From assembly GCA_026391715.1 (NCBI GenBank), contig JAPLDO010000145.1, positions 1 to 32,252 on the forward strand: a stretch of DNA of 32,252 nucleotides, in the 5' to 3' direction. Origin of the DNA: Bacteroidota bacterium. GTDB taxonomy: Bacteria > Bacteroidota > Bacteroidia > Bacteroidales > FEN-979. How positions within the stretch are numbered: the first letter of the stretch is position 1; every line of letters begins with the position of its first letter. The translations under genes were made by a program, and so were the position numbers. This document shows positions 10,615 through 14,381 of this stretch, piece after piece. Below the pieces are notes generated by a model. That model was not told the DNA's origin and searched no databases. It saw only the letters and a program-made list of their open reading frames with translations.

Positions 10615-10833
10615 ATGGATTTGCACTTACAATACATTACCAATGAGAAGGGGATCTCGCAGGCGGTGGTCATTCCGCAGAAAGAGTGGGAGATTTTTCA
10701 AAAAGAATATTTCAAGATGAAAAAGAAACTTGAAATTTTGCTGGGCATTGAAAATGCTCTCCAAGAGGTTGACTTGATTCAAACCGGTAAAAAGAAAGGT
10801 AAATCATTGGCAACCTTCATTTATGAACTTTGA
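10615..10833 (+). CDS. Antitoxin partner of the RelE-type toxin
   Basis: A 72-aa protein directly before a RelE/HigB-like toxin and overlapping it by 11 bp, the standard type II TA layout. The N-terminal half (LQYITNEKGISQAVVIPQKE) resembles the beta-strand start of Phd/RelB-like antitoxins, followed by a lysine/glutamate-rich helix EWEIFQKEYFKMKKKLEIL that could wrap the toxin. Expected role: neutralise the toxin and repress the operon. The specific antitoxin family is not certain. Confidence 0.75.
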   Translation: MDLHLQYITNEKGISQAVVIPQKEWEIFQKEYFKMKKKLEILLGIENALQEVDLIQTGKKKGKSLATFIYEL

Positions 10834-11176
10834 ATGTATTGTCACCGGAAATTTTCAGAATGAGGCAAAACGTCTTGTAAAAAAACATGCTTCGTTAAAA
10901 GATGAATTGAAAGTTCTTGAGGAGCTATTGTTGAAAAATCCGAAAACCGGCACGCCCATTGGCCGGAATGCCTATAAAATCAGACTATCAGTGAAAAGTA
11001 AAGGCAAGGGTAAACGGGGAGGAATGCGTGTAATAACCTATCTTGAAATTGATTTTATCATAACGGATATGACGAAAATATTCCTTTTGACGATTTACGA
11101 TAAATCTGAAACAGAATATATCACCAAGGATGAACTGGCACGGCTGATTAATGCCAGGAGCAAGGAAAGAAAATAA
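10823..11176 (+). CDS. RelE/ParE-superfamily toxin
   Basis: A 117-aa basic protein with the RelE-fold pattern: an N-terminal strand, a lysine-rich helix (EAKRLVKKHASLKDELK), then GGMRVITYLE (~67-75) and IFLLTIYDKSE (~86-96), and a C-terminal helix TKDELARLINARSKERK. This GGxRV(I/V)xY...(L/I)YDKSE pattern is typical of HigB2/RelE-like ribosome-dependent mRNA interferases, which cleave translated mRNA. It appears full length. The pair is bracketed by 67-bp direct repeats, suggesting it moved or was duplicated as a unit. Confidence 0.8.
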   Translation: MNFECIVTGNFQNEAKRLVKKHASLKDELKVLEELLLKNPKTGTPIGRNAYKIRLSVKSKGKGKRGGMRVITYLEIDFIITDMTKIFLLTIYDKSETEYITKDELARLINARSKERK

Positions 11177-11268: not shown

Positions 11269-11392
11269 TTCTGTATCTGAAACAAGGTAAAACAGGTGCA
11301 AGTGAATTTTGGTTAGGCAAGAAAGATGTTCTTGTCGTTGTCGTTCTCAAACATACATAAATATTGCGTTGCTAATATTTCTCTTATAGAAA

Positions 11393-11488
11393 ACCGCCAA
11401 TTTTTTAGTCAGAGAGAAATCTCATTAGTGAACGCACCCTACGGGTGTGTTCCTTTTGCTATTTCAGTTCTGACGGGTGCTTGGCGGT
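11393..11488 (+). ncRNA. Candidate structured RNA leader (aptamer-like multi-stem fold)
   Basis: Four nested pairings can be drawn by eye. P1: ACCGCCAA (11393-11400) with TTGGCGGT (11481-11488), 8 perfect pairs. P2: GTCA (11408-11411) with TGAC (11471-11474). P3: GAGA (11412-11415) - GAAA tetraloop - TCTC (11420-11423). P4: GAACGCACCC (11430-11439) - TAC - GGGTGTGTTC (11443-11452), 10 pairs with one G-U. P3 and P4 lie inside P2, giving a closed multibranch fold ~118 nt upstream of the repeat-protein gene. It does not match any riboswitch class I remember. Chance pairing cannot be excluded without covariation. Confidence 0.45.
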
Positions 11489-11536
11489 ACCTCTATAAGC
11501 TGAATATGTGCGGAGGTTCACGCCCTTTTTTATTTT
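11483..11536 (+). terminator. Candidate intrinsic terminator overlapping the leader stem
   Basis: GGCG (11483-11486) and ACCTC (11489-11493) can pair with CGCC (11521-11524) and GAGGT (11513-11517), separated by a 2x3 internal loop and followed by a T-rich run starting at 11526. Its 5' strand is the same bases as the 3' strand of P1 of the leader, so the two structures exclude each other. Confidence 0.45.
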
Positions 11537-11605
11537 GTGTGGATTTTAGCAATAGCCGGTAAATGAAAAAATGAATCTGTTATCACAAAACTTAAAAAAC
11601 TGAAT

Positions 11606-14136
11606 ATGAAAAAATTATCCTTTTTTATCGTTATGATTCTGCTCAATAGCAGCTTAATGCTGGCACAGGTGGGTATTAATACCAATGGTAGTAATCCTGA
11701 TCCATCGGCAGGATTGGATGTGAAATTCAGCAACAAAGGATTTCTTCCACCCCGAATGAGTCGTGCAGAACTCAATGTAATTCCTAACCCTGCTGATGGG
11801 CTTATTGTGTATTGTACCAACTGTGGCGCAAATGGAGCTGGCGCGCTTACCATGTTTATGTCTGGAGCTTGGTACAGTTTAAGCGCCAACTGTTTGATTC
11901 CTATATCACCAGTAACCGGAACCCATGTAGCATCGCCTACTCAAATTGTCTGGAACTGGAATGCTGCATTAAATGCATCAGGTTATAAATGGAGTACTAC
12001 AAATGTTTTTGCAAATGCCACTGATATGGGATTAAACCTACAGCTTGTTGAAACCGGACTTACATGCAATACCAACTATTCAAGATATGTTTGGGCGTAT
12101 AGTGAATGTGGAAATTCGACAGTAACAACGTTAGTGCAGGCAACTCAAAGCTCTACCATTAATGCTCCGACTTCAGGCGCCCACGTTTCATCGCCAACGC
12201 AAATCGTTTGGAATTGGAATTCTGTATCAGGCGCAACAGGGTATAAGTGGAGCCTGACGAATAATTATTCTACTGCAACTGATATGGGCGCAAGTCTTAC
12301 AAAAACTGAAACAGGGTTAACTTGTTTAACTCCATATACAAGATTTGTTTGGGCTTACAGCGCCTGTGGAATTTCTGCACCAACCACATTGACACAATCA
12401 ACCACCGGCTCAACGGTGACAGCGCCGATTGCAGGAATCCATGTTCCATCGCCGACGCAAATCGTTTGGAACTGGAATGCAGTTTCGGGAGCAACCGGTT
12501 ATAAATTGAGCGCCACCAATAATTACGATACAGCCACAGATTTGGGAGCCAACCTCACAAATACAGAAATGGGATTAACCTGTCTGACTTCATATACAAG
12601 ATATATCTGGGCATACAATGGTTGTGGAAATTCAACAGCGACAATATTAACACAAACTACGACAGGCACGACTACAACAGCCCCGACAGCAGGCGCGCAT
12701 GTTCCATCTGCAACGCAGATCGTATGGAACTGGAATACAGTATCAGGTGCGTCAGGCTATAAATGGAGCATTACCAATAACTACGCTACTGCGACAGATA
12801 TGGGAACATCCATCACAAAAACTGAGACAGGGTTAACCTGCAACACAGCATATTCAAGGTTTGTTTGGTCTTACAATGCATGTGGAAATTCAAATGCAAC
12901 AACATTGACACAATCCACAAGTGTTAGTCCCTCCTCGCCAATTGCAGGAACCCATGTTCCTTCGCCAACACAAATCGTATGGAACTGGAATCCTGTTTCA
13001 GGCGCTACCGGCTATAAATGGAATGTTACTTCTGATTATAATTCCGCTACTGAAATGGGCGCCAATACTACAAAAACAGAAACGGGCTTAATTTGTATTA
13101 CTCCTTATACACGGTATGTATGGGCTTATAACACTTGCGGCTATTCAACCGCAAAAACATTAACGCAAACCACTTCAACAAACCCGCCTGCTCCCCCAAC
13201 TTCAGGTACGCATGTGCCAACCGTTTTCAGATTGTATGGAACTGGAATACTTCGCCTGGCGCAACAGGTTACAGATGGAGCGCGACTAACAACTTTGCAA
13301 CAGCCACTGATATGGGAACTGCTACCACAAAAACCGAAACCGGACTGTCCTGTGGAACTGCCTATACAAGGTATGTTTGGTCTTACGGCGCTTGCGGAAA
13401 CTCAACGCCAGCCACATTAACACAATCAACTTTAACATCAGTCTATCCACCGGCTTCAGGCAATCACACTGCTTCAGGAACCCAGATTATATGGAATTGG
13501 ATTGCCTCTCCCGGAGCAATCGGGTACAAATGGAACACAATAAATGATTACGCTTCCGCTACTGAAATGGGAGCAGGCACAAGCAAAACAGAAACCGGAC
13601 TTACCCCGTTCATCACTTATACGCGATATGTTTGGGCATACAACACTTGCGGAATATCGCCGGCAGCAACTTTAACCGGGACTATCTATCAACTGGGCGC
13701 AAGTTATGGAGGTGGAATCATCTTTTATATCGATTGGACCACACAACACGGGCTTATTTCATCCACCAGCGACCAAAGTACAGGAACGAACTGGGGTTGT
13801 CAAGGAACCTTAATCGGAACTTCCACAGGTATTGGCAGTGGACAGGCAAATACAACGGCTATTGTTAACGGATGCAGCACGGCAGGTATTGCAGCGCGGA
13901 TTTGCAATGATCTTGTCTTGAACGGCTACAGCGACTGGTTTTTGCCATCTAAAGACGAACAGGATCAAATGTATGAACAAAAAAACGTGATCGGTGGATT
14001 TACAAGTACTTGGTATTGGAGTTCTTCGGAGACCGGCCCGAGCACTGCTTGGTACCAGTTCTTCAGCAATGGCTACCAGTATGGCTACAGTAAAAGCGAC
14101 GCTACATTCTACGTACGCGCCATCCGGGCTTTTTAA
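11606..14136 (+). CDS. Secreted seven-repeat protein with C-terminal DUF1566 domain, interrupted by a frameshift
   Basis: One gene read in two frames: 11606 to ~13224, then the -1-shifted frame to TAA at 14136. MKKLSFFIVMILLNSSLMLA is a signal peptide. The VGINTNG...SNKGFLPPRM head is common in Bacteroidota surface proteins. Seven tandem 85-86 aa fibronectin-III-like repeats follow, each with TQIVWNWN, GATGYKWS, TKTETGLTC and VWAYxxCG. The C-terminus (13711-14136) is a DUF1566/Lcl-type domain with GGIIFYID, WFLPSKDEQ, YWSSSE and VRAIRAF. Repeat 6 lacks one base near T-tract 13224-13227: the next repeat starts 254 instead of 255 bases later. A sequencing or assembly error, a real inactivating deletion, or slippage are all possible. 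No T9SS sorting domain is present. Likely an adhesin-like surface protein. Confidence 0.75.
11918..13715 (+). repeat. Seven tandem fn3-like coding repeats
   Basis: Repeat starts (GxHV or equivalent) fall at 11918, 12176, 12434, 12692, 12947, 13205 and 13459, i.e. spacings of 258, 258, 258, 255, 258 and 254. The last spacing is the only one not divisible by three and locates the frameshift in repeat 6. Each unit has two cysteines (LTC and ACG), which could bridge. Confidence 0.9.
14011..14136 (+). other. DUF1566 tail resembling a diversity-generating-retroelement variable region
   Basis: The C-terminal ~40 residues, YWSSSE ... AWYQFFSNGYQYGYSKSD ... VRAIRAF, match the arrangement at the end of DUF1566/C-type-lectin-fold targets of diversity-generating retroelements. 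Many codons here are NNC/NNT forms reachable from AAC/AAT (AGC, TAC, TTC, GGC, GAC, AGT, TAT), as adenine mutagenesis would produce. No template repeat or reverse transcriptase is in this window, and non-diversified DUF1566 proteins share the WSSSE...VRAIRAF frame, so this remains a suspicion. Confidence 0.4.
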
Positions 14137-14163: not shown

Positions 14164-14258
14164 GGCGTTCTTCCTCCTTGTGATTGAAAAGCAAGCAGGA
14201 AAAGCGCCTTCATTTTTGAAACCATCCCTTCGTGGCGCTTCGTATTTTCTTCGTGGCT
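14164..14258 (+). repeat. 95-bp direct repeat, left copy
   Basis: Matches 16449-16543 at 91 of 95 positions. The pair brackets the PIN/DUF433/DUF5615 TA cluster. It lies immediately downstream of the DUF1566 gene. Confidence 0.85.
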
Positions 14259-14292
14259 CTTCGTGATATTTTTTACACGAAGAGCCACGAAG
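14249..14292. repeat. Perfect 17-bp inverted repeat (REP-like hairpin)
   Basis: CTTCGTGGCTCTTCGTG (14249-14265), a 10-nt loop and CACGAAGAGCCACGAAG (14276-14292) form a perfect stem. The unit CTTCGTGGC itself recurs nearby (14229-14237, 14249-14257, 16514-16522, 16535-16543). Similar 'CTTCGTG(G)' palindromes are frequent intergenic repeats in several bacterial phyla. It could act as a transcript end for the DUF1566 gene, though no clean T-tract follows. Confidence 0.7.
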
Positions 14293-14381
14293 TTTTCACG
14301 AAGGGCCACGAAGTCTTACAGGATGAGACTTTCAAAGTGATTTGTAACTCATGCGGGATAGACCTGACGATTTTCAGAAGT

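Follow-up and report, generated by a model that had tools for sequence, protein, structure and literature searches.

Is the folded leader in front of a secreted surface-protein gene in the window (the whole 32,252-nt stretch of DNA analyzed here) an RNA switch, and if so, which of its strands change partners? A first-pass annotation had placed at 11393-11536 a riboswitch-like leader whose closing stem and terminator exclude one another. The covariance model R2, described below, has a single match in the window (E up to 1), a 180.5-bit match on the (+) strand that sets the extent of the element at 11361-11531. The core had been located, but the true start lies about 30 nt further 5', where a strand that we call S0 occupies approximately 11365-11385. 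The 11361-11531 segment folds at -64.6 kcal/mol (z -7.2) and 11380-11545 folds with z -5.5, with 0 of 200 shuffles equal in either case. The 8-bp closing stem is found exactly where it had been described (ACCGCCAA at 11393-11400, UUGGCGGU at 11481-11488), as is the 10-bp hairpin (GAACGCACCC/GGGUGUGUUC, 11430-11439 with 11443-11452), and a T-run at 11526-11531 does stand ahead of the secreted-protein gene, whose start codon at 11606 follows 75 nt on. The GNRA-capped hairpin of the same annotation (GAGA-GAAA-TCTC, 11412-11423) is not conserved but private to the window copy: 28 other aligned copies mostly have GAGAAATAG or GGGAAATAG at this site, and what covaries there is a different pairing, P2b.

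The class had been called unrecognized, which holds against Rfam 15: no family model matched over the element in the window (E up to 5), in 14 order-level loci (E up to 1), or in 18 phylum-level loci (E up to 0.1). T-box, JUMPstart, Flavo-1, Bacteroidales-1, 6S-Flavo, and other Rfam families were all among those with no match over the element, and the papers found by a search of the open-licence literature do not describe the leader.

We read the element as a probable cis-acting transcription attenuator of a new family with four alternating strands (Table 1), in which pairings 1:2 and 3:4 compete with 2:3, and from comparative sequence evidence we put the probability of the four-strand attenuator itself, apart from its effector and its direction of control, at roughly 80%. 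Sequence and covariation support two forms. In one, S1:S2, closed by P2a and P1, makes one long hairpin with a free 3' end; with S2 occupied in this way the terminator stem cannot form, and RNA polymerase would read through into the surface or signalling gene (ON). In the other, S0:S1 makes hairpin I and S2:S3 makes hairpin II, a terminator-like structure ending at the U-run, where polymerase would terminate (OFF). The apical parts of hairpins I and II carry the complementary strands of P1b, and these loops may meet, nucleate P1b, and zip the RNA into the long hairpin. An effector, whether metabolite, protein, or RNA, would shift the balance. The earlier proposal that the folded leader favours expression fits this predicted pairing logic.

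Table 1. Coordinates of the candidate attenuator and its neighbouring features in the window.
Feature	Position	Strand	Remarks
Promoter-like box GAATTTTG, tentative	11304-11311	+	One mismatch to TAnnTTTG; 57 nt 5' of the element
S0	11365-11385	+	OFF form: partner of S1 in hairpin I; own-versus-swapped test
P1a 5' strand	11383-11389	+	ON form: partner 11493-11499
P1b 5' strand ACCGCCAA	11393-11400	+	ON form: partner 11481-11488
P2a 5' strand	11408-11414	+	ON form: partner 11468-11474
S1	11412-11439	+	Partner S0 (OFF) or S2 (ON)
S2, exchanged strand	11443-11469	+	Partner S1 (ON) or S3 (terminator)
Apex of hairpin II	11475-11492	+	GGGU/ACCU pairing flanks the P1b 3' strand
P1b 3' strand UUGGCGGU	11481-11488	+	ON form
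P1a 3' strand	11493-11499	+	ON form
S3	11498-11525	+	3' side of the terminator stem, partner S2
T-run (U-run in RNA)	11526-11531	+	Seen in the sequence
Downstream gene, secreted repeat protein, presumed target	11606-13420	+	604-aa ORF; no Pfam family

The comparative evidence comes from relatives of the window copy. Searching at the DNA level gave three copies in the genome of the window and, at E up to 0.1, matches in 22 of 61 genomes (that one included), with up to 8 in a single genome, G009; the flanks of most copies differ, and many copies lie close to contig ends. Model R1, built from 27 copies, matched 109 of 393 genomes of Bacteroidales, the order to which FEN-979 belongs (E up to 0.001). 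These 27 copies and 45 order-level loci, 72 sequences re-aligned as A5, were the source of model R2, which matched 17 of 43 genomes of the window's family and 58 of 392 genomes across the phylum (completeness at least 85), both at E up to 0.001. Within the window's genome, R2 found three strong copies, a fourth at 84.5 bits, and two weak ones (56 and 49 bits); a true copy read on its reverse strand reached 55 bits. Some low-scoring matches are therefore false, and for the weak part the genome counts at E 0.001 are best read as maxima. The element is absent from the phage and plasmid records searched, and a pattern search of viral contigs gave no match; on these searches we set a phage or plasmid origin aside.

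The 117 loci used for the counts below are mutually related and were chosen for good scores, so they are no random sample, and the phylum-level alignment A6 is a separate set found with the A5-built model rather than an independently found one. Four reverse-strand matches were dropped from the 80 rows of A4, leaving 76. Loci L018 and L031 were left out of A2, and L017, L018, L031, and L045 were left out of A5 but are among the 117; partial matches L023-L025 were left aside, and R2 did not match the short partial matches L019-L022 and L032 at E 1e-5.

Together, P1a, P1b, P2a, P2b, and P3 make up the single long hairpin of the ON fold. RNAalifold already gave a long interrupted hairpin for 29 aligned copies, with double-sided changes at 17 of 38 pairs, and on A5 such changes occur at 36 of 39 pairs with 97.1% of cells paired. 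Compensatory changes in P1, which the first-pass annotation had named as a check, are abundant. The three copies in the window's genome alone have P2a as UCAGAG/UUCUGA, AAACAG/UUGUUU, and AAAGGG/UCCUUU. Beside P1b, the unpaired letters AAA, GGU, and ACC are strongly conserved, giving a conserved structured domain with conserved unpaired letters of the kind that marks riboswitches. Counts on this fold lean towards ON, the structure to which both alignments, A5 and A6, had been fitted; model R2 includes neither S0:S1 nor S2:S3. A local 4-bp hairpin at the 3' end, proposed by RNAalifold, was dropped from R2.

The OFF fold divides the element into a 5' half (11361-11441) and a 3' half (11442-11531), separate hairpins with z -4.5 and -4.9. 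Hairpin II ends at 11525 and UUUUUU follows immediately, so the terminator stem (11443-11469 with 11498-11525) stands directly before the U-run, as it does in attenuators. This arrangement is general among the relatives: in 101 of 101 members, folding the 3' half to minimum energy gives an unpaired tail of 3-9 nt, most commonly 6, and at least 6 T per 8-nt window are found at the 3' end of 106 of the 117 members. Double-sided changes occur at 17 of the 23 pairs of the terminator stem, a number reached by 2 of 500 shuffles, and 83.5% of its cells are paired. G-U cells far outnumber A-C cells in both folds (266 vs 57 in the terminator stem; 282 vs 25 in A5 and 118 vs 11 in A6 for the ON fold), which points to an RNA of the (+) strand. 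A separate small 5' hairpin at GCGUUGC was considered and set aside, S0:S1 explaining this segment better.

Strand exchange was tested by computing the energy of each duplex twice, once for a member's own two strands and once after swapping in the partner strand of other members (5000 permutations). Among the 45 non-redundant members of A5, own partners were better than swapped ones for S0:S1 (-14.95 vs -10.17, z -12.2), S1:S2 (-23.7 vs -17.4, z -11.7), S2:S3 (-26.8 vs -19.5, z -13.2), and P1 (-18.7 vs -8.6, z -19.7), with 0 of 5000 permutations as extreme in each case. The phylum-level set A6 (23 non-redundant members) gave z -8.2, -9.0, -9.4, and -13.6 for the same four pairings, and a run on the 76 loci (49 non-redundant) agreed with the A5 result. 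Control pairings in A5 gave z +0.9 (S0:S2), -0.8 (S0:S3), +0.8 (S0 with the P1 3' strand), +0.6 (P1 5' strand with S1), and -1.2 (P1 3' strand with S3); S1:S3, which is not an expected pairing, gave z -2.6 (36 of 5000 permutations). The same six control pairings ranged from z -0.9 to +3.0 in A6. A harder test, in which each of the 72 rows of A5 was swapped only with its nearest relative below 92% identity, gave p 9e-10 for P1, 0.0005 for S2:S3, and 0.003 for S1:S2; S0:S1 was not significant (p 0.087) and, of the four, is for this reason the one in most doubt. As in an attenuator, one strand is shared between two folds that exclude each other, S1:S2 and S2:S3 both passing in two sets.

These results separate two parts of the original proposal. 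Its layout, a leader with a fold and a terminator that exclude each other before a surface-protein gene, is borne out by covariation in two sets, the T-run, and the gene context, but the strand exchange it proposed is not. It had the 3' strand of the closing stem double as the 5' strand of the terminator; that pairing gave z -1.2 in A5 and also in the 76-locus run, +3.0 in A6, and p 0.47 in the nearest-relative test, and only 1 of its 8 pairs has double changes. The 5' strand of the terminator is S2.

Energies pose a question for the four-strand attenuator. At the median, the full-length fold is 10.1 kcal/mol lower than hairpins I and II folded separately, a difference whose positive values are impossible by construction, and the best fold of the window copy (-64.6 kcal/mol) compares with -56.9 kcal/mol when the terminator is forced. 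Given this greater stability, it is not obvious how the gene would be held off, and any OFF state would have to be decided during transcription or by a partner. That an effector holds the long hairpin, making the element an ON switch, is a guess to which we give slightly less than even odds.

The apices of the two OFF hairpins may bear on how the switch is made. In the window copy, the P1b 5' strand forms the 7-nt loop CCGCCAA (11394-11400), closed by AAAA/UUUU, and UUGGCGGU lies at the apex of hairpin II inside GGGU/ACCU, where the minimum-energy fold has it partly paired with a loop at 11482-11485. A GGY/RCC closing pair is present in 97 of the 98 members scored out of 101 (90.9 expected under independence), 7 members having C-G instead of U-A. 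With the two P1b strands at their tops, hairpins I and II present complementary apices, which suggests a kissing contact that nucleates the long hairpin. The copies in G009 differ in P1b (CCGCC, CUGCC, CCUCC) and each has the matching partner, which speaks for pairing in cis. A bolder version, about which we are doubtful, would be a phylum-wide self-kissing attenuator: complementary loops (CCGCCAA and UUGGCGG, compensated elsewhere) would kiss and zip into the antiterminator, the contact itself being the sensing step read by a Bacteroidota signal, and terminated leaders from sister loci could compete in trans, which would join surface, TonB-receptor, and kinase genes in a single regulon run by RNA.

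Gene context was tallied at the 117 loci by simple ORF calling, on which the orientation, ORF, and promoter counts all rest. The nearest downstream ORF lies on the same strand at 101 loci, at a median distance of 61 nt from the element, and on the opposite strand at 4, so the element typically sits upstream of same-strand genes; the 16 loci without a same-strand gene in reach (these 4, another 3 with no ORF inside 1 kb, and 9 where the contig stops) count against an attenuator. Upstream, 56 loci have a same-strand ORF, 29 an opposite one, 16 none, and 16 too short a sequence. In a Pfam search of the 101 downstream proteins (first 480 residues), the 25 of 60 families listed include TonB plug (12), PAS_9 (10), CheB (4), and CheR (4), and signal-like N-termini are found in 55 of 92 downstream proteins vs 24 of 98 background ORFs by a crude score uncorrected for relatedness. 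By sequence comparison, the same predicted design is recurrent before surface and signalling genes in many Bacteroidota genomes. Of 113 loci, 80 have an exact TAnnTTTG, the -7 box of Bacteroidota, between 10 and 170 nt upstream, where shuffled sequence predicts 17.5; a control region has it in 13 of 100 (9.2 expected). At the window copy the only such box, at 11304, carries one mismatch.

Several neighbourhoods recur. Eight phylum-level copies (L150, L152, L153, L156, L158, L161, L167, L170) lie about 200-375 nt before SusC-like TonB receptors, and upstream of the copies in this cluster are small divergent genes, several of them HTH-like by eye. At L118, L120, and L141, a small gene that also looks HTH-like begins within a few bases of the T-run, and at L037, L053, and L054, in three genomes, the same gene pair (268 and 162-163 aa) lies just upstream. 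In the window itself, a small two-gene unit (10615-11176, + strand) lies directly upstream of the leader; its ORF 10823-11176 has a weak RelE toxin match (20.1 bits, below the Pfam cut-off of 27), and the copies L033, L101, and L142 likewise lie just behind genes that look toxin-like by eye. Downstream, the ORFs 11606-13420 and 13135-14136 (+ strand) overlap, the surface-protein repeats breaking off in the first and resuming out of frame in the second, at whose end lies an Lcl_C domain (38.2 bits, cut-off 34.9); the surface-protein gene at 11606-14136 looks frameshifted, or the assembly is in error. Two intergenic inverted repeats stand apart from the leader: a near-perfect one of CTTCGTG-like units at 14225-14316 (DNA fold z -11.9), where Rfam microRNA matches fall below cut-off, and a strong one at 2781-2876 with arms CCCAAAAAGGGAGGGG and CCCCTTCCCTTTTTGGG (DNA fold z -6.3).

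The promoter-like boxes, together with a terminator-like 3' end and several similar copies per genome, could belong to a small RNA that stands alone, is transcribed from its own promoter to its own terminator, and acts in trans. We think this quite unlikely: the downstream ORF is on the same strand at 101 of 117 loci vs 4 opposite, at a median of only 61 nt, and a stand-alone RNA would have no need of two mutually exclusive folds. A released leader may nevertheless act in trans besides its control in cis.

The leader might instead recruit a processive antitermination factor, either NusB/S10 through a boxA or a NusG paralogue (UpxY/LoaP/RfaH type). The block GTTCTTAAACAT at 11343, just upstream, resembles GTTCTTTGA of the family's rRNA leaders, and GGCGGTA resembles an ops core. 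The boxA comparison (GTTCTTAAAC against GTTCTTTGA), however, gives a partial match that is missing from the G048 copies, and the ops-like GGCGG varies with compensation (CCGCC/GGCGG, CUGCC/GGCAG, CCUCC/GGAGG), so these letters behave as a stem and not as a recognition site; we consider such a site very unlikely. The GTTCTTAAACAT-like block itself (11343-11355) is conserved in own-family copies directly before the element.

The 1:2, 2:3, 3:4 logic is also that of the trp-type attenuators, in which case a ribosome stalling at S0 while translating a short ORF would free S1 and set the ON form. Such an attenuator has a short leader ORF overlapping strand 1. Counting ATG starts only, ORFs 7 or more codons long whose ends fall in the stretch from S0 to P1 are present at 11 of 113 loci, fewer than the 31.2 expected from shuffled upstream sequence, and we regard this explanation as highly improbable.

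That the element is a DNA hairpin of a mobile or repetitive kind (a transposon end, a MITE, or a recombination site) is scarcely credible: several copies per genome, up to 8 in G009, many near contig ends and with differing flanks, would suit it, but the roughly tenfold excess of G-U over A-C in the ON fold is unexpected for a DNA hairpin, the orientation to genes is nearly fixed (101 vs 4) where transposon ends or MITEs would be strand-symmetric repeats in random orientation, and phage and plasmid records and, by pattern, viral contigs hold no match.

If the four-strand attenuator works as proposed, many Bacteroidota would use an RNA switch class outside Rfam 15 to control receptors of the outer membrane, secreted proteins with repeats, and sensor kinases. 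What mutations should do follows exactly from the model, and a search for the signal can start from the genes found downstream.

Among described RNAs, the candidate motif HMP2_1032 offers a comparison. As that source characterizes it, HMP2_1032 occurs only in Bacteroidetes, has a predicted Rho-independent terminator, and is 106 bp long, in a TonB-linked context near a periplasmic TonB gene (PMC8040213). Phylum, terminator, and TonB context are thus alike, whereas length and gene setting differ; the element may overlap with the source's list of 3161 candidate RNAs (PMC8040213). Flavo-1 (RF01705) and other Bacteroidetes families of Rfam are similar to the element in being widespread structured motifs of the phylum; the window's genome gives no match to Flavo-1, a motif of 76 positions.

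With terminator-type riboswitches the element shares a structured leader with an expression platform and conserved unpaired letters (AAA, GGU, ACC), but it matches no Rfam class, and the GGU and ACC need not be a binding pocket since they can pair together in the OFF form. The trp and his leaders are four-segment operon attenuators with pairings 1:2, 2:3, and 3:4, of which 3:4 is the terminator before a U-run. Alternating pairings and a terminator stem before the U-run are common to these and the element, which differs in giving no indication of a leader peptide, in the closure of its 2:3 hairpin by P1 and P2a, in its complementary apical loops, and in having surface and signalling genes as targets. 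A loop-loop contact that chooses between terminator and antiterminator invites comparison with the pT181-type antisense attenuators; here both complementary loops would lie in one RNA.
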